In this document: one piece after another, positions 4,108 to 53,439 of the stretch
Layout: each line of letters begins with the position of its first letter
How positions within the stretch are numbered: the stretch's first letter is position 1
Origin: Lactarius indigo
Lineage: Eukaryota > Basidiomycota > Agaricomycetes > Russulales > Russulaceae
Direction: 5' to 3'
Assembly (NCBI GenBank): GCA_025766275.1
Contig: JAFKAC010000130.1
Location: 62,001-126,000, forward strand
DNA length: 64,000 nucleotides
The notes under the pieces: model-generated
Seen by the model: only the letters and a program-made list of their open reading frames with translations
What the model was told of the DNA's origin: nothing
Database searches by the model: none
Translations under genes and position numbers: made by a program

Positions 4108-4170
4108 CGCATTTGGATTGCGGGGTAGGTTTCTTGGTTGCCAAGAACTTCTTGGTGGTCCCTGCCATTG

Positions 4171-4995: not shown

Positions 4996-5231
4996 TTGAT
5001 GACCGGTATATGGGTTGATTGGAGCTAAATTAGCTCATGATTCCTCTGCAATGCGTCTTTGTTCTTCTAGGGCTATTTGATCTCTTGCTTTGGTGGTGAG
5101 TTGTGCTTCTTCCTGTGTAATGGTGGCAGTTGCCATTGCGACTGCTGGACTGTGAATGTAGATTACTTCTGGTTCGGGTTGGTGGATAGTTAGAGACTCA
5201 GTTTGTTGTATAATATGATCTTCAATGGCTC

Positions 5232-11418: not shown

Positions 11419-14400
11419 GCTCTTCCATCGTAGCACTGTCGATTGGAAGTATTAGTGCCAGTAGCGTTATACACGGCCTTTCCCTACTAGAGACGCTCGG
11501 AGCCGAGCATGTACCTGCAGAAACAATTCGGAATAGGAGAGCTCCTTCAATTGTTCTCAGAGTTACACTAGTAGGAAAGAAGTCTGGCAAAGAAATCAGT
11601 GCCCGCGCCCTGTTGGACAGTGGCGCAGAGGGCATCATCGTGGATGATGGGTTTGCGCGTGCAAACAACCTAACAATGAGGACACTAATTAAACCCTTAC
11701 CAGTTAGAAACGTGGATGGGTCTCCCAACAAGACGGGATCTGTTAGGTATACTACGATCCAGAAGCTACGGATCAGAACTTCTGATAACGACTACCACGA
11801 CGAAACCGTGGAGCTCTACGCAACTACCCTAGGGGAGCACGATATAATCTTAGGAACAGATTGGCTCCAAGCACATAACCCTGAAATTGATTGGCATCAA
11901 CCCAAGATAGCCTTCACACGATGCCCAAGAACCTGTACCCTGTCCTCCTCAGCAGTTATCATCTCTTCACAGGTTCCACAGACACGACATACGACTATTA
12001 ACATCCTGGAGCTTGACCCTGACCAAGAAACCTGCCTCCCTGTGAACGAAGAAATTGAACCCCTGGAACCTACCTTCATCCAAGATGCCTGCGAACCCTG
12101 GCTGTGGATTCACAGCTTCAACAAGTATGACCACCTTGCCATCCAAGCAAAAGTAACTACAAGCACCAAGATAGCAGCACGCACTGCACCTAAGCCTTCC
12201 ACCGACCACATTCCGAGCCACTTCCAACGGTACACTAAAGTATTCAGCGAAATCGCATCCCACCGACTACCCCAACATCAGCCCTGGGATCACGCAATTG
12301 ACCTCAAACCAGGAGCCACTATGAAGAATTGTGGCATTTATCGACTTACGCCAAAAGAATCCGATGCCCTCAAGGAGTACATCTCTGAACACCTAAAGAA
12401 AGGTTACATTCGACCATCTAAGTCACCCATGGCCTCCCCCTTCTTCTTTGTCGACAAGAAGGATGGCAAACTCCGACCTGTCCAAGACTACCGTGCCCTC
12501 AACGATATAACCATCAAAAATGCAGCTCCGCTTCCCCTTATCCCTGAACTCATTGACAAACTTCATGGTGCTCGTTACTTTACCAAGCTAGATATTCGTT
12601 GGGGATACAACAATATCCGCATCCGCAAAGGCGATGAATACAAGGCAGCCTTCAAAACGTCCTTAGGACTCTTCGAGCCGACCGTAATGACTTTTGGTCT
12701 CTGCAACGCCCCTGCCACTTTCCAAACATTCATGAACCAAATCTTCGAGTCTTTGATTGACGGTGGACACGTAGTGGTCTACCTCGATGACATTTTGATC
12801 TTCACCGAGAATATCTCCTCACTCACAGCGTTGACACACGACGTGCTTTAACGGCTGGAACACCACGACCTCTACCTGAAACCTGAAAAATGTACATTTG
12901 CACAAACCTCCGTCGAATACCTCGGAATCGTCATTTCCGATGGCCAAGTCTCTATGGATCCTGCGAAGGTTGCAGGTATTACTCAATGGCCCACTCCGCG
13001 CACTGTCAAACAAGTCCAAGCCTTCCTAGGCTTTTGCAATTTCTACCGACGCTTCATTAAAGACTACTCCACTATCGCCCGCCCCTTGTTTGACCTAACC
13101 AAGAAAGACGTCCCCTTTTCTTGGGGTACCGTGGCGGAAAGCGCTTTCCGCACCCTGATTAAATGCTTCACCAAAGCTCCTGTCCTTGCCCTGCCCGACC
13201 ACTCCAAACCTTTCCGCCTCATCACCGACGCAAGTGATTTCGCTACCGGTGCCATCCTTGAGCAACCGGATGCCTTGCAACGTTGGCACCCCGTCGCCTT
13301 CCTTTCCAAATCTCTCCTTCCTGCTGAACGTCACTATGAAATCTGCGACAAGGAACTTCTTGCCATCATCCATGCCTTGCATGCTTTCTGCCACTACTTG
13401 GAAGGACGGGATGACGTTACTGAAATCTGGTCTGACCATGGCAACCTTGTCTATTTTACCACAAAGCAAAAGCTTTCCCGCCGTCAGGCCCGTTGGGCCT
13501 TGTTCCTCTCTCGCTTCCAGTTCATCATCATCCACAAACCCGGTACACAGAATAAGTCTGATGCACTGTCTCGGCGTCCAGATCATAAAAAGGGGATAGC
13601 GGATGAAGATGAAAAACGAGTGCTCCTGGATACCAAGTATTTTTCCATCAACGCAGTACAAAGAACTGCAGTAACCATTCAAGGTGATACCACCCTCCGA
13701 CAACGTATCAAAAGCACCCAGACCTACGACAAGGAAGTCAGCATGGCTCTAGAATCCCTCTTAAAAAATGGTCCTCGTTCCCTAGCTAAAGGCCTAGAAG
13801 AGTGGAACTTAGAAGATGGCATTATCTTGTTCAAAGGACAAGTCTACGTTCCCAAAGATGACAACCTACGAAGAGACATTGTTAAAACATACCACGACCA
13901 CATCGCCACAGGACACCCTGGACGATGGAAGACCTACGAGTTAATATCCCGAGACTTCTGGTGGCCAGGCATATCAACCTTTGTCAAAACCTATGTTGAT
14001 GGTTGCGCCATATGCCAAACCACTAAAATCAAACCACGTACCCAAGTACCCCTACAACCAAATGCAATACCTGAAGAAATATGGGGGACCATCACAATGG
14101 ACTTTATCACCGACCTTCCCCTATCCCACAAATACGATTCACTATTTGTAGTGGTCGATCGACTCAGCAAAGCTATAGTCATCTCCCCTTGCAACAAAAC
14201 CATCACCGCAGATGAAACAGCCCAACTCTACCTTGAAAACGTCTGGAGACGTACTGGCCTACCCCAACAAGTCATTTCTGACAGAGGCCCCCAATTTGCA
14301 TCAAAGGTCATGCAGGAAATTTGGAACAAACTTGGAGTCACATCCACGCTATCTACAGCTTTCCATCCACAAACCGATGGAGAAACTGAACGCGTCAACC

Positions 14401-15179
14401 AAGAACTTGAACAATACCTTCGTGTCTTCTGCAACTTCCAACAGGATAACTGGGTGGATCTAATCCCTTTCATGGAATTTGCACACAATGCCCGACAACA
14501 TAGCGCAACCCACAAATCACCCTTTGAGGTTTGGTATGGATACAAACCAGAGTTCATTCCCCCTACCCACTTCACCACCAAAATACCTGCAGCCGAGGAA
14601 AGACTAAATGCGCTAAATCAAATCCGCTCCGAAGTGACTGCAGCCCTTAAAGTAGCAGCGGAAGTCATGAGAGGGTCAAAAACACCCACCCCCTCTCACG
14701 AATTCAAGACAGGCGATCTAGTCTGGCTGGAAGGGACCAACATCCATACTACCCACCCCAAAGCTAAACTTGCCCCACGACGCCATGGCCCCTTTAAAGT
14801 CCTTTCTACCTGGGGAGTCAATTGCAAACTCCAACTCCCCAAAACGTGGCGCATCCACCCAGTCTTCCACAACTCCTTGATCTCTCCATACAAAGAAAAC
14901 ACCACGCATGGGCCCAACTTCACCAGACCACCCCCTGAAATCATCCAAGGGGAAGATAACCACTACGAAGTTGAAAGGGTCTTGCAATCCAAGGTATCGC
15001 CTAACAAGAAGGGCATACTCTACTTGATCAAGTGGAAGGGGTATCCCGACTCCGAAAACTCCTGGCTCCCCTCCTCCCAAATGACCCATGCGCAAGACCT
15101 TGTTACTCAATTTCACAAGGCCAACCCCAGCGCCCCTAAACCCAAGTCAACTAGTGCTAGTGGAATAGCACGACGTTAA
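11415..15179 (+). CDS. pol: pol of the young element (one in-frame TAA)
   Basis: About 1,255 codons in the -1 frame relative to gag. Order: retropepsin active site LLDSGAEG near residue 66; reverse transcriptase with [13 protein letters not shown] and catalytic YLDD near residue 456; RNase H with TDASD near 604 and HKPGTQNKSDALSR; integrase HHCC zinc region (HDHIATGHPG, CAICQ) and DDE core (TMDFITD, ISDRGPQFAS, TDGETERVNQ); GPFKVL; and a chromodomain near residues 1183-1237 (YEVERVL, YLIKWKGYP, SWLPSSQ). The chromodomain in related elements binds histone H3 methyl-lysine and steers integration to heterochromatin. A TAA at 12849 follows HDVL where relatives read Q, consistent with CAA to TAA. 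The stop at 15177-15179 overlaps the polypurine tract. Confidence 0.92.
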
Positions 15180-20547: not shown

Positions 20548-21584
20548 TCAGATGTGAGGCCCACCTCGCATGAAAGCCAACAATGGCCAGTCCTTCTGCA
20601 CCTCCTCAATCCGCCAAAACGTGTTAGCTCTCTCCAACCTATAAATGGAGTTGAGCTTATCTTGCGTGACATTTGCCAATTGGAGTCGTATCTCCCTCAT
20701 ACGCGTCAGTAGTTGATCTTCATGGAATGCGGCCACTCGGTAGTGGTGAATCTCAGCCGTGAGAGATTCATCCCCTATCTTCTCGAGGGCGCAATCCGTA
20801 GTGTTCCCTTCTTTGATCATGATAAGGTCTTTGTGGGCGATGAAGGCCCGGTCATTGTGAGGGCGATGTGGTTTGGCGTACAAGGGTTGGCCATAGACAT
20901 ATGGCGATCCACTCATCAACCCCAGCACAAACAGGTTGCCACACATGACCACTTGCACATGGTCAGCTTCTACAACTCGCCCTCCGGGGAGTTTGACCTT
21001 GAAGGGAATTGAATTGGGTCCCCTATTGCACCAGAACCCTTCTGGTGCCATAAGGGAGGCGGGATCATCTTCGGGAGATCTGGGCTCGTGGGGCGCCACT
21101 CTGAAGACTCGGATGTCTCCTTGGTACATAGGGTCTCCGTTGGTGTAGACAATATAAGGGGTGGCATCGGGATCGTCAGTGTGGCTTCGTGTTCTGAGGA
21201 ATGAATGCCTCGCCGGGTATTGATCGCTATCGTCATAGACAGCATTATCATCCTCCAATACTTCTGTCTCGCTTTCCTTGCTTTCCTCCACATCTCCACT
21301 AGGTGCAGCTGTTCATCCTGCCACTTGCGTGCCATCTCCTTCCACTGCATCTCCCATGCTCGGAGTGACTCCGCACTCATCAGCGCTTGGGAGAGCCGCT
21401 CGAAGGGCGGCGAGTTCTTCAGTGGTGATGGGGGTGGTGTTGAACTGTCGGCCGGTGTCGGGGTCAATAAGGTTGTAAGTGGGGGTGGTGTCGTTGGTGA
21501 GGACCCCTCCAATAGGTAGGGGGAATTGCCTCTGAATGGCGTCCCATTCTTGCTGGGTGATAAGCCCCTCTTTGTTGGGGACAT
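20548..21584 (-). pseudogene. Extra 3' ORF of the older family, frameshifted
   Basis: An ATG at 21584 lies 8 nt after the pol stop. The frame is Pro/Ser-rich and then helical (MSAESLRAWEMQWKEMARKW). It shifts near 21300 into a second frame starting with an acidic stretch (SETEVLEDDNAVYDDSDQYP) and ending at 20548. The region LTAEIHHYRVAAFHEDQLL resembles LTAEVYRTRRLLQNQKAL of the 16191-17609 ORF, so the two families carry related ORFs after pol. No function is recognised. Confidence 0.6.
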
Positions 21585-21594
21585 CTTCAGGAGC

Positions 21595-23474
21595 TCAGAA
21601 GGTGTGTAGCGTGTTACGGGCCACTGCTCCCCTTGCGAGATGTTCAATGAACGTGGGGTTTGGTGCGGAGGCATCAGAAGGAGTAGTCATGAGAGGGTGG
21701 AATTCAGGAGTGGGGGATGGAGACTTAGCACAGCATCGAGCTGCCCTTATATGCACTTCTTGGTTGGGGTTTGAAGCTTTGAAGTCCTGAATGGCTTGGT
21801 TGGCAAAGACATCATCCTTATCGACCCACTGATTGTCCGGGTCTGGATAGCCCTTCCATTTGACGAGGTATTGGAGCCGACATCTTCTGCCGAATCGCTG
21901 AGAGTCTAGAATCTTCTCAACCTCATATTCTTCTTCGTTATCTACCAAATCCAGTGGTGGACACTGGTAGTTTGGTCTGTGTGTGGGTGTCTTGTGATAA
22001 GGTGTGAGAAGATCTATGTGGAAGACATCATGGATGCTCCACTGTGTGGGAAGTTCGAGGTGGTAGTTGACAGGGGACATCACCTGGACGACCTTGAATG
22101 GTCTGTGCTGTTTTGCAGCTAATTTCGCGGTTGGCTGGTGCATACGTAGGTGGCACCCTTCAAGCCACACAAGATCTCCGTTTTGAACTTGGGCATATCT
22201 TTATGCTTGACCCATGACTTTTGTGCCCTGAACATGCAAGAGAAGGCACGTTGTCGCGCTTGCTTAAATTGGTCTAGTCTCAGGGACACTTGTGGGATGG
22301 GAGACGGCCTATCAGTCCAATCAGTGCGAGGGTTGAACCCTGATAGAAGGAAAAAGGGGGACTCCCGTGTGGTTTCGTTAGGCCAATTGTTATGTGTGAA
22401 TTCTGCCATAGGCAGATAACGAACCCAATCATCCTGTCGTTCATTTACCCAGAAGCGGAGGTATTGTTCCAGCCATTGATTTGTTCGTTCTGATTGGCTG
22501 TCGGTTCTGGGGTGATAAGCGGTTGAGATATTTTGGCTGATGCCAAGAATTTTGCATATCTCTCTCATGAACTTGGATGCGAAGCGGGGATCTCGATCAC
22601 TGATAACATGTGAAGGGAGTCCGAATCGTGGGAAGACGTGAGAGACATACAAGGCGGCCGTTCCTTCGGTGGTTACTTCTTCGTTACAAGGAATGAAAAC
22701 AGCGGCTTTGGTGCAATCATGATCCGTCACCGTTAGGATGGAATTGTAGCCACGGGAAACAGGGAGTTTGGTAATGAAGTCCACCACAATGGTTTCAAAT
22801 GGCAGGGCTTCTGGTTTGGGATAGATGGGTTGTAAAGGTGCTCAGATTGGGCGGAGATTAACTTTGTGCCGCTGGCACTCCGCACATCCCTTGACATAGT
22901 CCATGACATCGTTTTTCATTTGTGGCCACCAGTAGTGTCTTTCTGTGAGTTGGAGGGTGCGTTTGATACCTGGGTGGCCATATACAGGGGAGTCATGATG
23001 GGCGGCGATGATGGTGCATTTGTTGTGGAGGCCGCCGGTGACTACTCATCATCCATCCTTGTACCACGTTCCTTCGATATCTTTTAGTTTATGAGCGTCT
23101 ACCCAGGGCCTCAACTTAGCTGTGTCCTGTTCGTAAATGGGGTGTTCTGGGATCATCTCTGCTGGCAGGATTTCCGGTCTTCCGTGTGGATGTGGCTGCT
23201 CTTCCAGTGTTGTGGTGCATACAAAGACGCGTTCTGGTAGTACCATTACTCCTTCATTGTTGTTTTCTCCTTGGTCATAATCTGGTCTTCACAATAGGGC
23301 GTTGGCACATCCATTGGAAGTTCCTTTGATGTGGTGAATCTCGAAGTCATATTCAGAGAGTTCAAGTACTTCCCTGGCGACACGTCTACTGATCTTCTGG
23401 GGTGACTTCCAGTATTGTAGGTTGAGATGATCGGAGAAGACCTTGATTTTGTGAGGAGAACCCACTAGTATCGT
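21595..23474 (-). pseudogene. pol fragment: RNase H end, integrase and chromodomain
   Basis: Visible are EHPIYEQD..KLKDIEGTWY, an HHCC zinc region (HDSPVYGHPG, CAECQ), the integrase core (VVDFITKLP, ISDRDPRFAS, RTDSQSERTNQ), GPFKVVQ words in a second frame, and a chromodomain (YEVEKIL, YLVKWKGYP, NQWVDKDD) before the stop at 21595. An in-frame TGA near 22840 and a frame change near 22150 break it. As in related chromoviruses, the chromodomain closes pol. Confidence 0.8.
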
Positions 23475-24065: not shown

Positions 24066-27000
24066 TCAACTCCAGTAAGAAGATAAACTTGCATGGAAAT
24101 ATTGATTCCCAGAACGGCCTAAACCAACGATCTCGTCCGTGAAAATGTGGTTTCGAGCGAAGAGTAGGACTGTACTAAAGGATTCAGACAATATATTGAA
24201 AGATAAAAAAACAAACAAACGAAATCAGTGGACATAATAAAGCTTGCAAATGACTCGTCAGAGTGCTCTTGAGGTGCAGCAAGGTATTGTTGAATTTTCG
24301 AGTCAATGTTTGCATACAAATAGCAAACGTCCGCATGGGGTAAAGCTGATTCAGGTGACATGTTTGAGAGACATGATAAACTGGCATGCTTCAAGATGAG
24401 GATAACAGCTTGGACAAAAGTCAAATAGGCGCTAAAAATAATGACGTGAAATACCGAGAATCAAATGATAACCGATGCCGAGACCGGTGACAGTAAGCTA
24501 GAGAAATAGAAATAAAAATCATAAGCCAGGGATAGATGAATGGAGTACGAAAAGAACACATTTCGAATGGCGGTCAGTGACATAATCTGCACTGTCTGAA
24601 GGACAAGTGAGATTTTCGGTTCGGTGGATATACAGAAAGCACTTACAAACTGGAGAGCTAGAGGTAAACACCATTAGCAAGCTAGAAAGGGGAGCATGCA
24701 CGCACGCGCTAGTTGATCAGGGATGAGTGAGATCGATGAATAGTCAAAGAAAGGTATAATCAACAGGTAAAAAAATGCAGAAAGGCATACGGTAACTCAC
24801 ATCCTGAAGATCCGAGGGCAAGAGTCATCAGCTGGCTCAAGACACAGTGACAGATGGCAGCCACTCACGACCTGGGAAGCCGAGGAGAGCTGTCGTCAGC
24901 AGGCTCGAAACACAGAGAGCCACGGCAGCCACTCACGAACTGGAGAGCCAAGGACAGCCGTCATCAGCCGGCTCTAAACAAAGAGAGCCACGGCAGCCAC
25001 TCACTCTCTGGAGAACCAAGGAGAGCTGTCGTCAGCAGGCTCGAAATACAGAGAACCACAGCAGCCACTCACGAACTGGAGAGCCGAGGACAGCCATCGT
25101 CAGCAGGCTCGAAACAAAGAGAGCCAAGGCAGCCACTCACTTTCTGGAGAGCCAAGGACAGCCGTCGTCAGCAGGCTCGAAACACAGAGAGTCACGACAG
25201 CCACTCACGAACTGGAGAGCCGAGGACAGCCGTCGTCAGCAGGCTCGAAACACAGAGAGCCACGGCAGCCACTCACTTCCTGGAGAGCCGAGGACAGCCA
25301 TCGTCAGCAGGCTCGAAATACAGAGAGTCATGGTAGCCACTCACTCTCTGGACAGCCGAGGACAGCCGTCGTCAGCAGGCTCGAAACACAGAGAGCCACG
25401 GCAGCCACTCACTTCCTGGACAGCCAAGGACAGCCGTCATTAGCAGGCTCGAAACACAGAGAACCATGGTAGCCACTCACCCACTGGAGAGCCGAGGACA
25501 GCCATCGTTAGCAGGCTCGAAACACAGAGAGCCACGGCAGCCACTCACTTCCTGGAGAGCCGAGGAAAGCCGTCATCAGCAGGCTCGAAACTCAGAGAAT
25601 CATGGTAGCCACTCACTCCCTGGAGAGCCGAGGACAGCCGTCATCAGCAGGCTCGAAACAAAGAGAGCCACGGTAGCCACTCACATCCTGGAGAGTCGAG
25701 GACAGCCATCGTCAGCAGGCTCAAAACACAGAGAACCATGGTAGCCACTCACGGGCTGGAAAACCGAGGACAGCCATCGTCAGCAGGCTCGAAACACAGA
25801 GAACCACGGTAGCCACTCACGAACTGGAAAGCCAAGGACAGTCATCGTCAGCAGGCTCGTAACACAGAGAGCCACGGCAGCCACTCACGAGCTGGACAGC
25901 CGAGGACAGCCGTTGTTAGCAGGCTCGAAACACGGAGAGCCACGGCAGCCACTCACTCCCTGGAGAGCCAAGGACAGCCGTCATCAGCAGGCTCGAAACA
26001 TAGAGAGTCGTGGTAGCCACTCACTCTCTGGAGATGCGAGGACAACCGTCGTCAGCAGGCTCGAAACACAGAGAGTCATGGTAGCCACTCACTCTCTGGA
26101 GATGCGAGGACAGCCGTCGTCAGCAGGCTCAAAACACAGAGAGTCATGGTAGCCACTCACTCTCTGAAGATGCGAGGACAGCCGTCGTCAGCAGGCTCGG
26201 AACACAGAGAGTCATGGTAGCCACTCACTCTCTGGAGATGCGAGGACAGCCGTCGTCAGCAGGCTCGAAACACAGAGAGTCACGACAGCCACTCACGAAC
26301 TGGAGAGCCGAGGACAACTGTCGTCAGCAGGCTCGAAACACAGAGAGCCACGGCAGCCACTCACTCTCTGGTGAGCCAAAGACAGCCATCGTCAGCAGGT
26401 TCGAAACACGGAGAGTCACGGCAGCCACTCACTTCCTGGAGAGCCAAGGACAGCCGTCGTTAGCAGGCTCGAAACACAGAGAACCACAGTAGCCACTCAC
26501 TTCCTGGAGAGCCAAGGACAGTCATCATCAGCAGGCTCGAAACACAGAGAGTCACGGCGGCCACTCACATCCTGGAGAGCCGAGGAAAGCCGTCATCAGC
26601 AGGCTCGAAACACAGAGAACCATGGTAGCCACTCACCCACTGGAGAGCCAAGGACAGCCATCGTCAGCAGGCTCGAAACACAGAGAGCCAAGGCAGCCAC
26701 TCACTCCCTGGAGAGCCAAGGACAGACGTCGTCAGCAGGCTCGAAACACAGAGAGTCATGTCAGCCACTCACGAGCTGGAGAGCCAAGGACAGCCATCGT
26801 CAGCAGGCTCGAAACACAGAGAGCCACGGCAGCCACTCACTCCCTGGAGAGCCGAGGACAGCCATCGTCAGCAGGCTCGAAACAAAGAGAGTCACGGCAA
26901 CCACTCACGAACTGGAGAGACGAGACAGCCATCGTCAGCAGGCTCGAAACACGGAGAGTCACGGCAGCTACTCACGAACTGGAGAGCCGAGGACAGCCAT

Positions 27001-30000
27001 CGTCAGCAAGCTCGTAACACAGAGAGCCACGGCAGCCACTCACTTCCTGAGAGCCGAGGACAGCCGTCGTCAGCAGGCTCGAAACACAGAGAGTCACGGC
27101 AGCTACTCACTCCCTGGAGAGCCGAGGACAGCCATCGTCAGCAGGCTCGAAATACAGAGAGCCACGGCAGCCACTCACTTCCTGGAGAGCCGAGGACAGC
27201 CGTCATCAGCAGGCTCGAAACTCAGAGAATCATGGTAGCCACTCACGAGCTGGACAGCCGAGGACAGCCGTCGTCAGCAGGCTCGAAACAAAGAGAGTCA
27301 CGGCAGCCACTCACTTCCTGGAGAGCCAAGGACAGCTGTTGTCAGCAGGCTCAAAACAAAGCATCACGGCGGCCACTCACTTCCTGGAGAGGCGAGGACA
27401 GCCGTCGTCAGCAGGCTCGAAACAAAGAGAACCACGGTAGCCACTCACCCACTGGAGAGCCAAGGACAGCCGTCATCAGCAGGCTCGAAACACAGAGAGT
27501 CATGGTAGCCACTCACTCTCTGGAGAGCCGAGGACAGCTGTCGTCAGCAGGCTTGAAACACAGAGAGTCATGGCGGCCACTCACTTCCTGGAGAGCCGAG
27601 GACAGCCATCGTCAGCAGGCTCGAAACACAGAGAGTCACGGCAGCCACTCACTCCCTGGAGAGCCGAGGACACCTGTCTTCAGCAGGCTCGAAACACAGA
27701 GTCATGGCAGTCACTCACTTCCTGGACAGCCGAGGACAGCCGTCGTCAGCAGGCTCGAAACACAGAGAGTCACGACAGCCACTCACTCTCTGGAGAGCCG
27801 AGACAGCCATTGTCAGCAGGCTCGAAACACAGAGAGCCACGGCAGTCACTCACTTCCTGGACAGCCAAGGACAGCCATCATTAGCAGGCTCGAAACACAG
27901 AGAGCCACAGTAGCCACTCACGAACTGGAAAGCCGAGGACAGCCATCGTCAGCAGGCTCAAAACATAGAGCTACGGCAGTCACTCACTCTCTGGGGAGCC
28001 GAGGAAAGCTGTCGTCAGCTGGCTCGAAACAGAGAGTCACAGCAGCGACTCACTTCCTGATAGCCGAGCACAGCCATCATCAGCAGATTTGAAACACAAA
28101 GAGCCACGGCAGCCACTCACCCACTAGTAGTCAGGTGGTATCAAAGATTATCAATCCTGTACCACAATTTACTGTATCGCCTTATCGATGCTCACCCAGA
28201 TGTGTGGAAACGGGATGAGACACTCCCGAACCATTTTTTTGACCCCCATGTCATGATGGGAACCGGTACTGCGATGCTCATCGTCATTGTCGCTCACATT
28301 GCACTCCCATTGGCACACTCACCGCCTCAAAGCTTCTTTAACACTTAATGCTAAATTACCGTTCTGCACGGCCAAAAGCATCAATCCGACGATGTCGTCA
28401 TTTAAAGCTGCAGCTGTCGTCTCAATAAGCTTATCGCAGCCCATATTTTCCTTGTGCATTTCTGCCCAAAAGTATTAGCACGTAACTCTGGCATCTGCCC
28501 CTCCACTTACTTTCTAATCGTACGAATCTAACACCATCATCCAGTGCACGCAAGTAGTGCTCTTCAAATTGTTTCTCTGCCACATCAGATACATTGTCAT
28601 CTGGGCCTCCGAAATCCTCCACATAGATTTGGACATTTCGTAGGAATTGATCATATTTTGTAAATACGGCAACGATAGGGACTGAAAATTATCTTCTCAA
28701 TACAGTCACGGACGTCCGTAATGACACACCGTTTCCGTCAGGACAGATGTCCTTGAAAAATTTGAGATCGAGCTGTGGCCGTTGGTTGTCCATTGGGACG
28801 CAGTACCTCCAAAACCATGACTGTTAGTTGTCCTAATCGTGAACACTTGACAGTCCAAACCATATCGCATGCAATCTGTTTATCAGTCGCCTCTCTCCAC
28901 ACTTGCGTCGAATGAACTCTTGCAGAATCGTGAGTTCCTCGGCGCCACCTGACTCAATTCCACGCGAGTCGTGGAAAACGTAACCCTTATGATTAGAGAA
29001 CACGAGTTCGTCGTCGATTCCGTGCTCGCCTCGCTGGCTTCATGCTCAAGACGACCGAAGAGAATACTACTATCACTTACATCCATGGACGGGTCGAGTC
29101 TAGCCTGGTCGGCAGTGAGATCAGGTTCGCGGACAAAACGGTTGGACTACGTACTTCCTTCCCTCCCCGGTAAATGACGGGGCTTTCTGTGGTTTCGCAG
29201 ATTCTCTGCAAGATTGACGTCTTTCCAGCGTTTGCTCTTCCTATAATAAGCACGCGGAACTGGATTTCTGGAATTTGACGACGGGGTTGCCGTGTGTCCC
29301 TTGAAGCAACGGTGTTTGGGAAGGTAGCTTGAGGGTCAAGAACGCGAGTGACGTCTGTCGACTATAGGAGGAATTCAACGGCTTTCTGGTACCAGAGAAC
29401 AATCAAAGACACACCGATTTGGATTTCGTGTAAACAAAAGTCACGGCAACCCGATGGTCGCTATCTGTGAAGCCGCTCAGTAAGAAGCGGATTGTACTGG
29501 GAGGAAAGGCACCACCACCTTCCAGACGGACAACCTTGTCGTCTCCAAACTTATATGGCATAAACTCGACGGAAACTTCAGCGACCCTTATTTTGAACAG
29601 CGCCCGCTGGATGGTCAACGTAGCTTTTGTGTGGGTCTTAACATAGCTACGCGGAATAAATTAGCACTCGGTGGTGAGGGAAAAAACACGGCTAATGACA
29701 CGAACATGTTGGGGTCCCAACGAACAAGAACGCCGTTCTTGAATTTGTTAGACTTGTGTGTGAAACCGGCGTCGTCCTTGAAAACAAGCTCGAGGTCGGA
29801 TAGTATAGGACGTGCCTTGATAAAATCGACAGATATTCCTACGCAACTATATCAATTCTTATCAGAAGCAATTGTAGGTTCTATATACTTTTCAAACGAA
29901 TAACTCTGTTCATGAATCGGTCAGTCTATGCTCGGCGAGAGGAAGCTGTTCAAACTAACTGATGTTGATCGTCTATATCGGTTGCAGATCTTGGATTCAA

Positions 30001-31561: not shown

Positions 31562-33188
31562 TTAGCTCACACGTACCCACTCTCCCCGCTCGAGTTCCCA
31601 GTGCACCCCAGAAGAAAAGACGACGTAGCGTAATGCCGGTCCCAGTGGAGGTCGCGTCCACAGCACGAGACGTAACGGGTCTTCCTCCAACTTGGCAGCC
31701 CAGGTCGCCAAAGTGGCCCGCAGACGGAGCGTACGAAGTGATTGCCCGTTCGGCAATAGCGAGGCAACTTGCTTGTACAGCGCTTGCAGCGAGACCTAGT
31801 ACCGATCAGTCAGAGACAAGTGGTATAGAGAAGGGCAGCAAACGCGTACCTCATCTGAAGTGCCATCCAGGCCCAGTTCATCTCAAGCCCCGCGCCTGTA
31901 TTTCCCAGCGCGCCCAATAACCGCCAGCGCATATGCACGTCCACGTCGGGCGCAAGAACGAGCACGAGCTCCTTCAGTGCGCCGCCGAGCGCGCCAAACG
32001 GCGCCGCGGGGCGAAGGCCGTCGTACAGCGTGCTCGCGATGCTCAGCGTCACGCGGCGGAGCGGACGGCCAGGAACGAGCGCCACCGCGAGGCCAGGACT
32101 GCTGTTGAGCACAGCAAGGCGTGGCACGGCGGCGGGTGGAACTTCATGTGCTGCACGGGGCACGCCGATGAAATGGGGCAGCGTGAGGTGGGTAATACGC
32201 GCACGCGCGGGTGCGGCGAGAAAGTCGTCGAAGAATGCGTAGGGAAGCGTGTCGGTGAGCGGCAAGTAAGCGTGCCTGGCATCGTGGAGAGCAACTCCGC
32301 GTCGAAGGCTGACGAGGTCAACGCCGAGAGCGCACGCATAGCACAGAGTGTCAGGGACAGCGCGAGCACGAAGGACGGGCCGTGCGCGGGCGGGTAAGCG
32401 CGCAGCGCGAGCGTCGACACGAGCGCCGCGAGATGTGGCCCGCACGCTAGCCACGCGATGCACGCGTCAGCGAATAGGTCGAGCGTATGGTAAAGCGCCA
32501 GCTGCGCGGCGGTGCTGAAGCGTTTCGAGACCCGGGCGATAATGGGCAGCCGGGATCGCGGGACGTGAGCCAAGACGAATGAGAGTGGGATTGGAGAACT
32601 CTGGTGCACCTGCTGTTGGGCGAGCCGTGGGCTGCGTGGCTCGAATACCTGTGGGGTAGGCACTATGATACCTTGGGACGGTGGTGGTGAAGATGCGGGC
32701 ATGGACTCGGTCGGGGAGTGCAGGAATGCGGGTGGGCTGAGTGTGTGGGTAGGGGCGAGGTGCGTTTGGAAGGAGGACCGGGCACTGGGCAGGATGACGT
32801 GTGTTGGTACGCTCAGGAATATCTCGACATGCGTGGGAAGGAAGGTGAGACGAGCGAATCGGTTCAGGCCATGTCGAGCTCGGAAATAATGCTGGCGCGT
32901 CGCCCAAGGCTGCTGAGAAGACGGATATCTGGAGATGGGGGCAATGGCGAGCAGCTAGGAGAACGGGGCCACGGGACACTGGAGGTGGCCTTGGAAGAGA
33001 GGCGTCCCCTTCCCCTGCGGAAATGTAATATGGAAGTAATGGTCGTCATCTGGGATAGCGAGACGGAGGATTGGGATGTCGGTCGACGAGATCATAGATG
33101 GTGAGTGCATGAGACTGGGCGTGTTACACATTCTCCAACGGTTTGTAACTGGTTTACACAGTACTGGACCGGCCTCCAAGGTCGACAC
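31562..33188 (-). pseudogene. F-box-type protein gene, copy 1, frameshifted
   Basis: The minus-strand gene has a Ser/Pro-rich N-terminus, an F-box-like segment (IPLSFVLAHVPRSRLPIIAR, VSKRF) near 32580, and leucine-rich segments in which paralogues read LTLRIASTLYDGLRP (here LSIASTLYDGLRP). A last exon (31562-31756) ends WELERGEWVRV. The frame changes near 32270, where about eight residues present in copy 2 are missing. F-box proteins recruit substrates to SCF ubiquitin ligases; large families with this architecture exist in agaricomycetes. It is likely a pseudogene unless an intron spans the break. Confidence 0.55.
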
Positions 33189-41587: not shown

Positions 41588-44453
41588 CTATCCCGACAGC
41601 AATTCACGGACCATCCTGCTAATATCGTCGACAGTCATTTGTTGGCCATGAGTCGTGTTGGAATATATGCTATTGTGGATGCGTTGACGAGAGTAGGATC
41701 GTTCATAAGACTCAAAGGCTACTTGGAGCTCCTTCCAAGTCGTCGTGAGAGCCAAGTCAGGCCTGAGAGTTATGTCAAACAACTCTCTCAAAACGCCAAC
41801 GAGATCTACGGTGTAAGCGATTAGGAGTCGTTGGACCGAGGGTCTACTCATCGTCAATAAAGTGAGAACGAATGGATGGACGGCAATGCGTACATGCTGC
41901 TTTCGAGCTGGGTTGTTGAGAGCCATTTCACAAAGACGTATGACAAGCCTAGGATAGCGACAGGTGGCGCAATAGGAGCGGGGGCAACAGTGACGAGGTC
42001 CACAAATTGGGAAATTATATCAACATTCGGAAGACTGAGAGAAATGTCAAAACTCCTCAGGTAGTACGCGTCGACACATACACTGAGACATTGGGTTTGG
42101 TATGGACGTCTTGAACAAGACATAACATCAGTTGTCGAAATTCGGGACTGTTGAGAACCTAATGACGGGCGCATGAGCCATGCCAATGTAACCTGAATTT
42201 TAGTGATTTAGTACCTCGCCCTTGAAGTTCCAACAAGTTATAATATCTTTGTGGACCGCCTCGACGCAGTCGCGAAGTAACATTTGTCCCGATTTAGGCA
42301 CGCCACGCCGGTGAACCATGAGGGACTGTCTGTAATCTGAAATACCGTTATTTAAGCACGCGTGGTCGGACACTCGAAGTACATACAACTGATGCCCTTG
42401 CTTTCCAGAGATGAATATATGTGAATAAGGTTGATGAATCCAAAAGCTTAGCCGAAACCCACGTGACGCAAGCATCAATTTTAACCGGGAGGCTTGTTCG
42501 TTGTGCTATTGCCCACAGCACCCAAGCGTCGCCTTCGACTCGCTTCCTGACAACATCCCTAGTGACTTCAACAAGGGATGAAACATCCTCCTGATGACCC
42601 GGACGAACTAACAAGCGGTCAATACTAGAAATAGTACAATGGCGCAAATATACATATACCTGAAACCGTGGCATAGGGCGGCATCGGGATCCCGAGGCGG
42701 TCCATCGTACGCTGGAGTGATTTCAGACAATCTTCAAACGCCTTCTGAGCCTCCTCCACGCCACGATCATGCAGACGAGTAGGGTCCATATGTGGGTGCT
42801 CCTCTCGCAACTCAGCCTCTTTCGTCCTTACTAGTCGGTCGTACTGAGTGAACACGATCACAATGGGAACTGATTGATAATAATCACTGGTCGATTTAAG
42901 GGTAAAAGGACAGGAAGTTGAAAACGCACCTTGGTCTTTATGTGCAAATTGGAGTAGCTTCTCGTCCCCCGTCTCAAATACACGACCTCCAGCTGTCGGT
43001 GTCACTGTGCAGAGCCTGATGACGGTAAGAGATATCGGTAGATTACAAAAGAAACCCTCATACCATAATCCATGGATTCTTTCACCTAAGGGCAGTTGCT
43101 GTCGTGACCGTTGCTGAACAAATTTGCGTACAGTCTCGAAATTGGAGAGGTCTCCTGGTTCGAAGCCTTTAGAGTCGTGTAGAACGAAAAATTGGTTTTC
43201 CGGTGACACGAATTCTTGTTGGATATCCGCTTCTCCGGGTTTGTTGTCCTCAACATGCTACAACAGAAGGCGATCAGTTGCCGTTAGCTCGAAACGACAA
43301 GATCTTACTGCGGCGTCAATACCGAATACACGGTTAATCAGGGATGACTTGCCAACACCAGACTGAAGATAAATTACCGTTGACGGAACGAGTCTCAAGA
43401 GAAACAACAGAGAACAACTAACCCGACCAACTGATAAGATACGAAATCTAAATGACTCAGGTGAGTAATAACGACTCAGCTTCCGACTGGTGTACCGACC
43501 GCTCAACTGCCTTGAGGATATCATCGATAGTGTTTTCGCGCTCGGTGGTGATTGAGGTAGAAGGGCCTGACTGGTGTGCTCCAGGCACCAAACCACTTTC
43601 GGCCATCTCAGAGGTATTTGTAACTTCATCAGGATTACGGGCCTTCCCGGTAAGCGATGCCTCTGCACGAGCATCCGGTAGTAGTGACGGTGACGTTGAA
43701 GCGTTAGTTTCGACAGGGATGTGACCCGTCAGATGTGACCAAGGCTCGGCAGAGGCGGCGATGTCTACAGTTTCTGGGGTGTCCTGGGAAAGGCCTCGGA
43801 CCTTATAGGGGTCAGCGGGATTTTCAGTAGGAGGGTTATCAGCTTCGGAGACGAGGTTCGTGGTATCGATGGGTAAGCCTGGAGGGGATGACGCGTTCCC
43901 CGACACAGTGACCTTTAGGTGGACTGTGACCGGCTGCGTTGACTGTCCAGCTTGTCTATTATTGCCCTTGCTAAGGTCAAAAGAAAGATCTATTTGAGAG
44001 ACGAGAAATGTTCAGCCCGTCGAATGAGCGAGAATTCCAGTAAAGTACGGACCACTTGTAGGCCCGAGAGGTAGTAGTATCTCATGTGTTCCCACAAGGA
44101 AATCGTGATGTAAGAATCGCTTCGCAAGAAGATGTAGCTTAAGACGTGAAGGCGGCTGTACAAAACTGAGCAGACTTCTCAGCCGAAAAATAGTATTAAG
44201 AAAGGATATCTTACAAGGCATCAAGTTTCTGGTTCCATGACACTGTCTCCCCATCAATCTTAACGCTTGCTGATTTGACCGTTGTCTCTTGACAGGTCAC
44301 AGTGACGAAAATCCGCCTCTTCATGCCCAGCCATCTCTTAACATGAGGGAGGTTGTGCGCTCTGAGAACTAAGAAAGAGATCGAATGAAGTCAAAAAGTT
44401 AAAATGTATGCGCGTACTAGTCACTTCAACACGTAGCCTGGACGGACTTCCAT
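41588..44453 (-). CDS. C2 plus G-domain (P-loop GTPase-like) protein, gene E
   Basis: The minus-strand gene has many short introns. The ATG at 44453 starts a short exon. After a GTGACT...CAG intron it reads VLKAHNLPHVKRWLG and RIFVTVTCQE, a C2 domain. The C2 ends with LHLLAKRFLHHDFLVGTHEI. A disordered Ser/Pro/Thr linker follows (around 43460-43900). The G domain reads RFRILSVGR, then SGVGKSSLINRVFGIDAA (P-loop), FFVLHDSKGFEPGD (DxxG), and IVIVFTQYDRLVRTK. The C-terminal part has a hydrophobic segment (IAPPVAILGLSYVFVKW) and ends in RMVRELLSG at 41588. C2 domains bind membranes or Ca2+, so a membrane-associated GTPase is inferred. No break was found, though some exon joins after 42650 are uncertain. 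Confidence 0.7.
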
Positions 44454-47970: not shown

Positions 47971-50900
47971 CTAGTAAGAAGATAGACTCGCACGGGGATA
48001 TTGATGCCCAGAAAGGTGTAAACCAATAATCTCGTCTATGGAGATGTGGTTTCGAACGAAGACTGAGGCTGGAATAAAGGCTTGAGGAGATGTCATCTTA
48101 ACAAATATAAGAACAAACGAACCAAATCAGTGGCCATAATAAAGGCTGCAAATGACTCGTCGGAATGCTCTTGGTAGGATCCGGCAAGGTGTTGTTGAAT
48201 CGTCAGGTCAATATTTGCTTCCTGATAGTCGACCCCCGCGTAGGTTAAAGCTAATTCAGGTGACATATTTGAGAGGCGTAAGAAAGTGGCGTGCTTCAAG
48301 ATGAGGATGACAGCTTTGACAAAAAGTTAAATAGGGGCTAAAAATAATAAAGTGAAATACCAAGGATGAAATGATAATCAGCGTTACGACCGGTGGCTGT
48401 AAGCTAGAGAGATAAAAATAATAAGCAAAGGTGAATAAGTGTAATATGAAGAACACATTTTGGATGGCGGGCAGTGACATAATCAGTGCTGCCTGATGGA
48501 CATGTAAGATTTTTGGCTGAGTGAGCATACAGAGAGCACTTACAGACTGGAGAACTAGAGGTGAACGCCATTAGCAGGTTGGAAAGGGGAGTATGCACGT
48601 ACGCGCTAGTTAATTAGGGAAGAGTACGATCAGTGGAAAGTCAAAGACAGTCATGATCAACGGGAAAAAAATGTAGAAAGGTGAACAGCAACTCACATGC
48701 TGAAGATCCGAGAGTGAGAGTCGTCAGCAGACTCGAAACACAGCGAGCGACGGCAGCCGCTCACATACTGTACAGCCGAGAACAGCCGTCATCAGCAGGG
48801 CCGAAACACAGTGAACCACGGCAGCCACTCACATCCTGGAGAGCCAAGAATAGCCGTCGTTAGCAAGCTCGAAACACAGCGAGTTACAGAAGCCACTCAC
48901 TGACTGGAAAGCCAAGGACGGGTATCATCATCAGGCTCGAAACACAGCGAGTCACGGCAGCCACTCACTCTCTGGACAGCCGAGGACAACCATCGTCAGC
49001 AAGATCAAGACACAACAAGCCACTGCAGCCACTGACTTCCTACACAGCCGAAGACAGCCACCATCAGCAGGCTGGAAACACAGAGAGCTACGGCAGCCAC
49101 TCACATCCTGGAGGGCCGAGGACAGGTATCGTCAGAAAGCTCGAAAAACAGTGGGCCATGGCAGCCACTCACTTTCTGGAGTGCCGGGGACAGCCGTCGT
49201 CAGCAGGCTCAAAATATGTCAAGCCACGGCAGCCACTCACCAACTGGAAAGCCGAGGGTATGTATCGTCAGCAGGTTGGAATCAGAGAGAGCCATGGTAG
49301 CCACTCACCGACTGGATAGCCGATGGTGGCCATTGTCAGCAGGATCGAAACACAGTGGGCCAATGCAGCCACTCACTCTCTGGACAGCCAAGGACAGCCG
49401 TGATCAGCAAGCGCAAAACACAGCCAGCCACTGCAGCCACTCACCAACTGGAGAGCCAAGGATAGGTATTGTCAGCAGGCTCGAAACACAGTGAGCGATG
49501 ACAACCACTCACATACTAGATAGCCGAGGACAGCAGTCGTCAGCAGGGTCAAAACACAGCAGGCCACGGCAGCCACTTACCAACTGGGGAACCGAGGACA
49601 GCAGTCATCGGCAGGCAGGAATTACAGCGAGCCACGGAAACCACTCACTGACTGGAGAGCCAAGGACAGGTATCACCAGCAGGATCGAAACACAGTGGGT
49701 TACAGCAGCTACTCACTTTCTGGAGAGTCGAGGACAGGCATCATCAGAAGGATCGAAACACGGCGAGCCACGATAGCCACTCACCAACTGGACAGCCGAG
49801 AACAGGTATCTTCAGCAAGACTGAAACACAGTCAACCACAGTAGCCACTCACTTCCTGGACAGCCGGGGACAGCCAGCGTCAGCAGGCTCAAAACACAGC
49901 GGGCCACCGCAGCCACTCACATCCTGGAGAGTCGAGAATAGGTATTATCAGCAGGCTCTAAATACAGCGATCCACAGCAACCACTCACATCCTGGACAGC
50001 CGAGGACAGGTACCATCAGCAGGCTCGAAACATAGCGAGTCGCGCGAGCCACTCACTCTCTTGACAGCCAAGGACAGACGTTGTCAGAAGGATCGAAACA
50101 CAGCGGGCCACAGTAGCCACTCACTTCCTGGAGAGCCGAGGACAGGTATCGTCAGCAGGCTCAGAGCACAGCGAGTCGCTGAAGTCACTCACTTCCTGGA
50201 GAGCCAAGGATGGACGTCGTCAGAAAGCTCGAAACTCAGAGAGCCACGACAGCCACTCACATACTGAAGAGTCAAGGAAAGCCGTTGTCAGCAGGATCGA
50301 AACACAGCGAGCCACTGCAGCCACTCACCAACTGGAGAGCCAAGGACAGCCGTCGTCAGCAGGATGGAATCACAGCGAGCCACGGTAACCACTCACTTCC
50401 TGGGCAGCCGAGGACAACCGCCATCAGCAGGCTCGAACACAGTGAACCACTGTAGCCACTCACATCCTATAGAGCCAAGGATAGCCGTTGTAAGCAAGCT
50501 CAAAATACAGCGAGAAACGGCAGCTACTCACTCTCTAGAGAACCGAGGATAGCTGTCGTCAGCAGGATTGCAACAGAGTGGGCCACGGCAGCCACTCACC
50601 AGCTGGAGAGTCAAAGGCACCCATAGTCAGCAGGATCGAAACACACAGCGAACTACAGCGGCCACCCACTCTCTTGAGAGCCGAGGATATGCATCGTCAA
50701 CAGACTCGAAACACAGCGAGCTATAGCAGGCACTCACATACTGGAGAGCCGAAGACAGGCATCGTCAGCAGGCTCGAAACACAGTGGGCTACGGTAGCCA
50801 CTCACTCTCTAGAGAGAGTCAAGGACCACCGTGGTCAGCAGGATCGAAACACAGCGGGTCAATGCAGCCACTCACTCTCTGGAGAGCCGAGGACAGCCGT

Positions 50901-53439
50901 CGTTAGTAGTCTCAGAACACAGCGAGCCACGCTAGCCACTCACTCTCTGGATAGCCGAGGACAACCATCGTCAGCAGGATCGAAACACAGTGGGCCACAC
51001 CAGCCACTCACTTCCTGGACAGCCAAAAACAGCGATCGTCAGCAGGCTCAAAACACAGCAAGCCACGGTAGCCACTCACATCCTTGAGAGGTGAGGAGAG
51101 GTATCGTCAGCAGGCTGGAAACATAGCGAGCCACGGTAGCCACTCACCGACTGGAGAGCCGAGGACAGCCATCGTCAGCAGGCCCGAAACACCCAAGCCA
51201 CGGTAGCCACTCACATACTAGAGTGTAGAGTACCAAGGTGGTCAAGTCAGTTGTTCTCGAAACTGTGAGTAAGAGCTGACGCTCACCCACTAGTAGTTAG
51301 GTGGCATCAAGGATTATGAATCCTTTACCACAATCTAATACTATCAATACTTACCCAGATGTATGGAAACGGGCGAAGACATTCCCGAATTATAACTTCG
51401 ACCCTCATGCCATTAGGGGCACGAACACTGCAATGCTTGTTATCATCGTTGTTCGCTTTGCGCCTTCAATTGGCACACTCACCGCTTCAAAGCTGTCTTA
51501 ACACTTAATTCTAAGTTGCCTCTCTGCACCGCCAAAAGCATCAATCCGACGATGTCGTCATTTAAAGCTGCGGCTGTCGTCTCAATAAGCTTATGACAGT
51601 CCATATTTTTCCTGTGCATTTCTGTCCAAAAGCGTTAGCATGTGACTCAGTATTTGCCTCTCAACTCACTTTCTAATCGCACGAATCTGACATCCTCATC
51701 AAGAATACCCAGGTAGTGCTCTTCAAATCGTTTCTCCGCCACATCAGACACGTTGTCATCTGGGCTTCCGAAATCCTCCACATGGTACCGGACATTTCGT
51801 TGGAATTGATCATATTTTGTAAACACGACAATGACAGGGACTGAAAACTTTCTTGTCAATACGGTCATGAATGTCCGTAATGACGCACCATTCCGGTCAG
51901 GACAGATGTCCTTGAAAAACTTCAGATCGAGCTCTGGTCGTTGGTTGTCCATTGGGACGCAGAACCTCAAAATAACATGGCCGTCAGTTGACGTCATCAT
52001 GAACACTCGAGAGTCCAAACCATATCGCATGCAATTTATCTCGCAGCTGCCTTTCTCCACACTTGCGTTGAATAAAATCGTTCAGAATATCGAGTTCGTA
52101 TTTGCTACCCGACTCAATACCGCGAGAGTCATGGAAAACATAGCCCGTATGATTGGAGAATACGAGTTCGTCATCGATCGTGTGCTCGCCTCGCTAAATC
52201 CATGTTTAGAGGCAATCGAAGAGAAGCACTATTATCACTAACACCCATGGACGGGTCGAGTCTAATCTGGTCGGAAGTGAGACCACATTCATAGACGAAA
52301 AAGTTGGACTACGTACCGTCTCCTCTCCCCGGTGAATGAAAGGGCTCTCTGTCGTTTCACATATTCTCTGCAGGATCGATGTTTTCCCTGCATTTGCCCT
52401 TCCTATAATAAGCACTCGGAACTGGACATCTGGAATTGGACGACGGTGCTGCTGGACGACGGTGTCTGAGAAGGTGGGCCGAGGGCCAAGAGCGCGAGTG
52501 ACGCCTGTCAACTACAGGGGGGATTCAACGGCTTCCTGGCACCAGGGAACAACCAAAGACCCACGGGTTTGGGTTTCCCGTACACAAAGGTTACGGTAAC
52601 GCGACGCTTGCTATCTGTGAAGCCTCTCAGCATGAAGCGGGCTGTACCAGGAACAAGACATCACCACCTTCCAGACGGACAGTATTTTTGTCTCCAAACT
52701 TGTCTGGCTTAAAATTGACCGAAATGGTGGTAGCCCTTATTTTGAGACGCGCTCGCTGCTGGATGGCCAACGTCGAACTGGTGGAGGTCCTAACATGGCT
52801 GTGCGAAAGAAATTAGCATTCGATGGTGAGGGTAAGTACTGCGAACATCTTAGGGTTCCACCAAACACGGGTGTTGTCGTTCTTGAATATGTTGGACTTG
52901 TATTTGAAACCGGCATCGTCCTTGAAAATGAGCTCTAGGTCGTATGTAGGACGTTTCTCGATAAAGTCGACAGATATTTCTACGGGAACATCAATTCTGC
53001 TCAGAAGCAATGATAGGTCCCATATACGTTTTAAATCGATATATCTGTACGTGAACCGGTCAGCCCATGTATGCTCAAGTGGAAGTTGCTCGACTAACTG
53101 ATCCTGAACGTCCACATTAGTTGCAGATCGTGAATTCGATTCCATTCCAAGATATAAGGAATTTGGTTTTCTAAGCTTGGGTGCTGTGTGAAGAACTCCG
53201 ATGAAGCAAAGGTGGATGTAGGAGCGACGAATGGAGGTGGATAGATGCAGGAAGACGCACGTGTGAAAAACAACAGCGGCATTCTGATGCATGAGCGTTA
53301 GGTTGAACGCTTTGAGCCGTTCTGTTCCAACTTTCTCGACGACATGCCCAGAATTGCCAACTGCCATCAACTGTCTGATGACATGGGGCAGTCGACCACG
53401 CCGTTTGGCTCGACTTGTGGCCGCCGGCGTTTCTCTCAA
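47971..53439 (-). CDS. Multi-exon G-domain gene with a micro-exon array, copy B
   Basis: Paralogue of the gene at 24066-30189. Minus-strand words: LGMESNSRSATNVD, DLSLLLSRIDVPVEISVDFI, VQFRVLIIGRANAGKTSILQ (P-loop), VFHDSRGIESGSKYELDIL (DxxG), VPMDNQRPELDLKFF, VPVIVVFTKYDQFQRNV (TKYD), an exon ending RPFPYIW, and about 39 predicted 3-nt exons (48697-51289). It then reads ALIMSLPAIQN, LTATAVILILKHATFLRLSN and a tail ending LSSY at 47971. Introns are GT-AG and restore the frame, including one with an extra T in copy B that falls inside the intron. At the 5' end the codon matching the copy A ATG reads ACG, so the start may be lost or lie elsewhere. Confidence 0.6.
48697..51289 (-). repeat. 68-bp tandem array, copy B, read as about 39 mini-introns and single-codon exons
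   Basis: Same design as the array at 24801-28123 but far more diverged between units. In every unit inspected the minus strand keeps GT at the start and AG at the end of the 65-nt segment, while flanking bases drift. Donors read GTGAG, GTAAG, GTCAG or GTGGG. Acceptors read CCAG, CTAG, TCAAG or ATAG. Branch words CTGAC, CTAAC or CTGAT are kept in most units. The 3-nt spacers (AGA, GAA, GAT, TAT, TTG, TCA, TCG, AAA, CTG and CAT seen) differ from those of copy A and include no stop. Confidence 0.75.

Follow-up and report, generated by a model that had tools for sequence, protein, structure and literature searches.

Putative serial mini-introns parted by one-codon exons in a G-domain gene family of Lactarius indigo

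The window considered here is a stretch of 64,000 nucleotides from the mushroom Lactarius indigo (C36:62001-126000 of a 90.3-Mb assembly in 291 contigs). On its minus strand lies a gene for a G-domain protein, window gene 1, that is interrupted by what looks like a 68-bp minisatellite. Very probably, this array is a series of about 50 spliceosomal mini-introns parted by exons of a single codon each, and the mRNA gains a hypervariable peptide in frame.

Tandem Repeats Finder places the 68-bp array at 24795-28120 (49.1 copies, 85% matches) and reports a second, also of 68 bp, at 48721-51223 (36.8 copies, 73% matches). Read on the minus strand from 28123 to 24803, the first is a gapless run of 50 units of the form (C/T)AG-NNN-GTGAG, with 50 trinucleotide spacers standing directly between AG and GT, one per 66-68 nt. 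When k letters are allowed between AG and GTRAGT, array 1 gives k=3 51 times, k=1 10 times (the number of its AGA spacers) and zero at k=0, 2 and 4-9; array 2 gives k=3 36 times, k=1 seven times and zero at all other k tested. When each strand is cut into 64 overlapping tiles of 3 kb, only tiles that overlap either array hold chains of at least four units, with a maximum of 44 chained units on the minus strand and five on the plus strand. The parts of the two arrays are as follows.

28123-24801, minus strand: array 1, with 50 one-codon exons and 49 mini-introns of 63-65 nt, GTGAGT...CTGAC...CTCTCCAG
28121..28123, minus strand: first one-codon exon, TGG, with a diverged intron (28195-28124) on its upstream side
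24706..24708, minus strand: one-codon exon CGC, after a 92-nt intron unrelated to those of the array
24647..24649, minus strand: one-codon exon TTT, bordered by an intron unrelated to the array introns
51289-48697, minus strand: array 2, in a paralogous gene, with 39 one-codon exons and introns 76% alike

Array 2 lies 23 kb from array 1 and has two extra flanking spacers, CGC and TCT. The encoded peptides are WERFEREGERWEELEGEFFGLGWDEERFRRRRGLFPDGEWEREFKFRFVD for array 1 and WYSDERRRYRLRDELYEERDDELKSLYLRSLKDERSDYH for array 2. An earlier note on this DNA had described the AG-3 nt-GT periodicity on the minus strand, which the 50 consecutive exact spacers of array 1 bear out. Its 65-nt introns do run from GT to AG, but their length in array 1 ranges from 63 to 65 nt, and its count of about 50 one-codon exons holds for the array itself but misses the two that flank it (CGC, TTT). 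Nor is the array confined to one gene, as the paralogue at 51289-48697 and further gene copies also carry arrays.

The ordinary exons around the two arrays are listed next.

29155..29361, minus strand: G-domain exon with the P-loop GRANAGKTS, translated
29081..29104, minus strand: G-domain exon ARLDPSMD, translated
28861..29033, minus strand: G-domain exon RGEHGIDDELVF...LHAIW, translated
28730..28806, minus strand: G-domain exon YCVPMDNQRP..., translated
28511..28681, minus strand: G-domain exon VPIVAVFTKYDQF..., translated
28323..28461, minus strand: exon KMHKENMGCDKLIETTAAALNDDIVGLML..., translated
28196..28268, minus strand: last ordinary exon before array 1, ending FPHIW in phase 0
24560..24595, minus strand: first ordinary exon after array 1, TVQIMSLTAIRN, similar and in frame in aligned paralogues
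24455..24497, minus strand: tail exon LTVTGLGIGYHLIL, corresponding to LIISDIGWYHLNL / LIIHKSSHLHLIF in transcript-like proteins
24221..24408, minus strand: tail exon AVILILKHA...FASFIMSTDF
51355..51427, minus strand: paralogue exon before array 2, ending FPYIW
48457..48492, minus strand: paralogue exon after array 2, AALIMSLPAIQN, with the one-codon exons CGC (48605) and TCT (48546) ahead of it
48403-48361 and 48313-48123, minus strand: two tail exons of the paralogue

When its ordinary exons are joined with the 52 one-codon exons, window gene 1 shows a single open frame from STDVTRV to FIMSTDF, and every exon of the one-codon series is 3 nt long and in phase 0. The array had been placed between coding exons of one G-domain gene, behind an exon that ends FPHIW in phase 0 and lets the units keep the frame; this is what is found, with phase-0 flanks and a frame that stays open from the G domain through all 52 codons to the tail. 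All 31 family copies that were aligned have an open frame in the exons that span RLDPSMD to FPxIW. In 24 of 26, the G-part junctions are AG/GT throughout; the exceptions are L048, with GC at the last G-part donor, and L054, where AG is missing ahead of the first exon of this stretch. In 11 aligned tails, two extra 3-nt exons and the exon at the TVQIMSLTAIRN position are kept while the introns have diverged. The exon at the position of 24708 is 3 nt in 11 of 11 tails (CGC, AGC, CAC, CAT, TCT), as is the exon at that of 24649 (TTT, TCT, CTT, TTC, GTT); the first one-codon exon reads TGG, TTG, TTT, TCG, TAT or CAT in the paralogues. A pseudogene was considered in view of the stops in a first N-terminal model and was dropped because, judged by the models of annotated sister copies such as P0003, those stops appear to fall into introns. 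A tail intron at GTCTCGG was ruled out by the transcript-like proteins, which have exon LTVTGLGIGYHLIL.

From its translated exons, the host protein appears to carry the motifs of a P-loop GTPase, with GRANAGKTS corresponding to GxxxxGK(S/T) and FTKYDQF to TKxD. The GTPase-type matches in Pfam are sub-threshold (MMR_HSR1 with 20.9 bits in P0003 and 19.2 in P0018; cut-off 21.9), and the partial proteins P0121, P0127 and P0130 have none. No NACHT, NB-ARC, WD, ANK or TPR domain was found in the Pfam scan of the proteins.

A query with the G-domain exon gives 66 matches in the genome, and 50 of them were examined: the 30 best, the next 19 and a window copy at 45260 (+). Arrays are present in 41 of the 50, which do not amount to 41 independent genes because several are near-identical to one another. 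All 30 best loci (L031-L060, both window genes included) carry an array, recognised by strict chains of 7-12 units in the DNA read, that starts about 900 bp past the start of the G-domain exon; the next 19 comprise 11 with an array and eight with none in the stretch read. The longer arrays have 27, 28, 30, 37, 39, 46, at least 49, 50, 67, 67, 67, 73 and at least 73 units. C270 has about 50, and C1 and C175, a near-copy of C1, have 84 each; these three counts take in the one-codon exons that follow the array. Except in near-identical copies, the codon series are unlike one another. Near-identical pairs or triplets of array genes lie on C231 at about 117-124 and 220-228 kb; on C231 at 200.7 and 397.3 and C223 at 164.5; and on C2 at 35.8 kb. 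They represent either recent segmental duplication or unmerged dikaryon haplotypes. The third G-domain gene copy of the window, at 45260-45454 (+) and read to about 45980, has no array or FPxIW exon there and is probably truncated. In this copy and in the six of the eight array-less copies that were translated, no FPxIW or tail exon was found among the longer open stretches; they therefore give no ancestral uninterrupted exon.

The letters of the spacers offer a further view of the arrays. Here the GT and AG ends and the 3-nt spacing were imposed by the search pattern, column statistics cover 65-nt introns only, and 9 of 31 array sequences were removed as near-copies before codons were counted in sets of 402 and 568; a 368-unit column table still includes near-copies. 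None of the 402 de-duplicated spacers is a stop, where 48 would be expected and the lowest count among 10,000 column shuffles is 30, and the enlarged set gives 0 of 568 against about 70; for TAA and TGA together the count is 0 of 568 against 57. Codons that create a competing GT or AG are also depleted in the 568 spacers, with GTN found 9 times (54.4 expected), NGT 5 times (39.8) and NAG twice (38.6). Since five codons (AGA, GAA, GAT, TTG and TTC) make up 370 of the 568, column independence is only a rough null. Array codons come near to one per amino acid, as in GAT 70/GAC 2 and TAT 20/TAC 1, but TTC 48/TTT 12 departs from this; splice-site avoidance alone does not explain the palette. In five arrays, introns are 0.76-0.89 identical versus 0.33-0.42 for spacer letters, which differ as much as letters drawn at random; in each of the five, no other window of three columns in the unit varies as much as the spacer. 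Mean intron identity is 0.745-0.941 within ten arrays and 0.63 in C1.

The length of 104 of 546 introns is offset from 65 nt by a number that is not a multiple of three, and the chains of 3-nt spacers run on unbroken. The branch-point A is present in 429 of 433 de-duplicated 65-nt units (367 of 368 in the column table) and is among the most conserved columns not set by the search pattern, and a YTRAY motif is found close to the 3' end in all 50 introns of C270 and in 68 of the 81 of C1. With GT, AG and a CTRAY-like branch site, the mini-introns would class by sequence as spliceosomal introns of the U2 type. The C1 array holds 84 consecutive one-codon spacers between introns of 55-88 nt that are only 63% alike, and its peptide includes an uncharged, Cys-rich block of 22 residues that none of 20,000 shuffles of residue order could equal. 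Three array peptides have no Pfam family above cut-off; one has two weak PDB matches (E 0.006 and 0.41) that are taken as chance. Two candidate in-frame stops were rejected, since the TGA in L049 belongs to a unit with broken spacing and the one in the C175 copy, also TGA, comes from a wrongly placed spacer next to an intact GAA.

A non-coding minisatellite, or a repeat coding on the plus strand, with splice signals that are incidental, has a practically negligible chance of being the right account. Long plus-strand open reading frames (ORFs) of up to 487 aa do occur in array 1, but the 68-bp period is not divisible by three and the ORFs are fragmented to 127-182 aa in array 2. Moreover, chance fails to yield 50 exact 3-nt spacers, or arrays that share one position in 41 of the 50 gene copies examined.

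Protein databases hold relatives of this gene family (the best 120 of 796 are considered here, with 6 and 20 added by two region searches). Several of them, encoded on jgi contigs of 0.9-3 kb, are uninterrupted across the L. indigo intron positions; because of the short contigs and the continuous reading we take them for environmental cDNA. Twelve of these (P0018, P0121, P0124-P0132 and P0135) pass from FP(Y/F)IW through 25-57 variable residues to the conserved tail, P0132 stopping shortly after the start of the tail. P0137 and P0138 terminate inside the variable part, and P0133, P0134, P0136 and P0139 resemble ORFs of genomic DNA that run on through introns. For 10 of the 12, pairwise identity is 77% in the 60 upstream residues and 35% in the variable part, with 30% for shuffled peptides; P0125 and P0132 share 56 of 60 upstream residues and 15 of 33 aligned ones in the variable part. 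The residues DEFLRSKGYW account for 91% of L. indigo array residues, 83% of jgi variable parts and 54% of flanks, and the composition of the jgi variable parts correlates with that of the L. indigo arrays at 0.62, compared with 0.43 for the flanks.

Two further relatives seem to represent partly spliced forms. P0092 continues from FPYIW with FFFN and then 22 residues, 19 of which match a translated mini-intron profile (i-Evalue 2.5e-8), and reads as four joined codons plus one retained mini-intron. P0080 reads FPHIW-LFEEEGDTFIE-VSGCNGLI, with a final part that by eye resembles a mini-intron start and does not have the length needed for scoring. Matches to the profile with an i-Evalue below 0.05 occur in 25 of the 139 proteins retrieved, mostly soon after FPxIW; the profile is that of one of three frames, and the i-Evalues, some only 0.01-0.04, are uncorrected for three frames. 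Two of the 25 are jgi proteins and 23 are gene models, from L. tabidus, L. vividus, L. sanguifluus, L. hatsudake, L. pseudohatsudake, L. hengduanensis and L. indigo. At least one mini-intron-like unit is therefore predicted at the same site of the same gene in seven species, and gene finders appear to read into it; the complete arrays observed are all from L. indigo. The 10 L. indigo models among the best 120 of 796 relatives all lack the tail, and P0013, a model on the window's contig, reads into the intron after the second codon. Because gene models break at the arrays in this way, annotation has probably overlooked the variable part of a large gene family of mushrooms. Taken together, the micro-exon reading put forward in the earlier note gains support from the open frame, the lack of stops, the out-of-frame intron lengths and the branch A in 429 of 433 units, and also from the 84-exon C1 array and the variable in-frame peptides that relatives appear to contain.

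A variant compatible with this reading is that variable subsets of the one-codon exons are included, such that one gene yields many peptides. Every subset would keep the frame, such short exons may be prone to skipping, and partly spliced forms seem present among relatives (P0092, P0080). The variant is nevertheless doubtful: no case of two isoforms from one gene occurs in these data, codon order is kept over 67 units in near-identical copies, and C1 has its ordered Cys-rich block. The last two points suggest that the full series matters.

Comparison between copies gives some idea of how the arrays evolve. One array has 28 units in its C2 copy and 30 in its C231 copy, the arrays of C259 and C218 have the first 12 and another eight codons in common and little else, and one array repeats a six-codon block with 100% identical introns. 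From such differences in unit number and such shared or repeated blocks it follows that units are gained, lost and moved. Simple duplication of neighbours was rejected, as lag-1 introns are not clearly closer than distant ones in ten arrays, although a few multi-unit blocks are repeated. Linkage of a codon to its own intron halves, as in a moving cassette, gives only a weak signal. In C231_99r, a young-looking array with introns 94% alike, intron pairs at least 97% alike share their codon in 25% of 210 cases. Something holds the codons apart while the introns remain alike. Among three near-identical arrays of 67 units, codons have changed in 3-5 of 201 letters and introns in 58-96 of 4250, and four of six changed codons are silent. 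Point hypermutation of codons in the recent past thus finds no support, as codons and introns of the three copies diverge about equally.

Several observations weigh against a series of one-codon exons that serves to diversify a peptide. The 67-unit arrays give no sign that codons are still hypermutating, nor a clear one of positive selection in the recent past. In L049, unit 8 is broken, with a 3' splice site shifted by two letters that leaves a 1-nt spacer; this is a decayed unit in an otherwise intact stretch. Codons are nearly independent of the neighbouring intron letters. Finally, the L. tabidus model P0034 goes from FPYIW to TEQVVSLPAIQK without an insert. This last model is what would be expected if the 3.6-kb stretch from FPHIW to TVQIMSL were one large intron, removed directly or, as the earlier note had also considered, by a ladder of recursive splice sites, with the spacers absent from the mRNA. 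The flanking exons are both in phase 0, so skipping the whole array keeps the frame, and any AG-NNN-GT could serve as a recursive site. One large intron is still very unlikely, since it leaves the avoidance of TAA and TGA unexplained, gives no reason for the spacers to be the hypervariable letters of the unit, and does not fit the 25-57 residues present there in 12 transcript-like proteins or P0092 and P0080, which read as codons followed by one retained mini-intron.

The near-independence of codon and intron also bears on where the arrays came from. A mobile, introner-like intron could have entered an ordinary exon at every codon boundary, with no tandem amplification of 68 bp. Near-identical introns with unrelated, nearly uncoupled codons would fit such an invasion, and the C1 array resembles an ordinary protein segment. 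Invasion would, however, have to strike every third letter, always in phase 0, at 27-84 positions running, for which we know of no mechanism, and arrays that differ by blocks of units (28 versus 30) or repeat six units with 100% identical introns behave like minisatellites. Invasion therefore appears improbable, and recombination with selection for diversity is the preferred account of how the arrays of one-codon exons evolve.

Under this account, the mini-introns would be taken out one by one through intron definition. Stepwise splicing of 3-nt exons can be modelled on the combination of intron definition and recursive splicing proposed for a 1-nt exon of Arabidopsis (PMC4674806), and window gene 1 itself would presumably be spliced in one-codon steps. 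The product would carry an insert between the G domain and the conserved C-terminal tail, of 52 residues here and 27 to more than 80 in paralogues. Whenever repeat recombination added, removed, duplicated or exchanged units, the peptide would change by whole residues only; because the DNA unit is about 68 bp while the coding unit is one phase-0 codon, the frame would never be shifted. The alike introns would supply homology for recombination and the codons would remain different. We infer that recombination and selection together drive the variation. A charge- and aromatic-rich hypervariable segment in a large GTPase family would be consistent with a binding or self/nonself surface, by analogy with the repeat domains of fungal NLRs (PMC4986451), and the variable peptide may, tentatively, be a recognition surface. 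Somewhat more tentative is a germline diversity generator, where a surface segment of a GTPase is kept as a cassette array with every amino acid on its own exon, for a repertoire that is immune-like or concerned with self and nonself. Repeat recombination, and possibly combinatorial exon skipping, would then edit the peptide residue by residue and give many recognition specificities per genome.

If these arrays are spliced as proposed, 50-84 serial exons of three letters would be the most extreme splitting of coding sequence known to us and would test intron definition with no exon room at all. They would also represent a new route of protein evolution, where minisatellite instability, normally ruinous in coding DNA, does no harm and is even of use, since translation takes in a single codon of each unit.

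The remainder of the window offers some context. Related sets of ORFs with a shared stretch, RAYPPAHGPSFVLAL, lie at 31810-33045 (-) and 55065-56471 (-), upstream of both array genes, and each array gene may for this reason sit within a duplicated segment. A different G-domain gene with P-loop GVGKSSLINRVFG is found at 42625-44011 (-), outside the array family. ORFs at 9868-15179 (+), 1639-5034 (-) and 20548-22841 (-) are presumably Gypsy-type retroelements by their motifs. An identical short ORF occurs at 6045 and 15169, as it would within a long terminal repeat.

Partial parallels to the Lactarius arrays exist elsewhere. In the PRDM9 zinc-finger minisatellite and in TAL-effector repeats, a few codons per unit vary and the remainder is conserved, as here; that remainder is coding, whereas in Lactarius it is intronic. 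We know of no system in which one-codon exons by the dozen lie between near-identical tandem introns and only the codons vary. In line with the earlier note, which knew of no such array in fungi, no description of tandem one-codon exons was found in the open-access literature searched, a scope that excludes most subscription journals.

Four published systems can be set beside the arrays. The micro-exon genes of schistosomes have 10 to 20 short exons per gene, of 3-81 bp according to the abstract and 6-81 bp, mostly 15 bp, according to the text (PMC10526429). They are alike in their serial short exons, mostly multiples of three, in protein variation based on splicing and in being hard for annotators, and the series of window gene 1 is likewise serial, short and symmetric, with all exons 3 nt in phase 0. 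They differ in having introns of 0.1-5 kb, mixed exon lengths and small secreted proteins, whereas Lactarius has tandem introns of about 65 nt, 27-84 one-codon exons and a G-domain protein, and the varying part is the codon; the comparison is by description and not by sequence kinship. In the HET-E/NWD family of Podospora, repeats are homogenised by exchange while a few positions diversify, which is thought to serve nonself recognition (PMC4986451). Such fungal NLR repeat domains resemble the arrays in repeats that are kept alike, few diverse positions, variable copy number and a multigene family; however, whole protein repeats are translated there, while the Lactarius repeat is an intron of which one codon per unit would be translated, and in place of NACHT or NB-ARC with a repeat domain Pfam gives only sub-threshold GTPase-type matches. 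Introner-like elements of fungi are short spliceosomal introns present in many near-identical copies per genome (PMC4457414), comparable to the identity of 0.745-0.941 in ten Lactarius arrays and 0.63 in C1. They are dispersed in unrelated genes, whereas the Lactarius units stand head to tail at one site of one gene family, behind the same exon in 41 of 50 copies examined. Lastly, a 1-nt exon of Arabidopsis APC11 is spliced, for which its authors favour intron definition and recursive splicing with successive introns (PMC4674806); together with 3-nt alternative exons it shows exons of 1-3 nt to be spliceable, though as a single exon where Lactarius has dozens in series. Each of these four systems shares one aspect with the Lactarius arrays.

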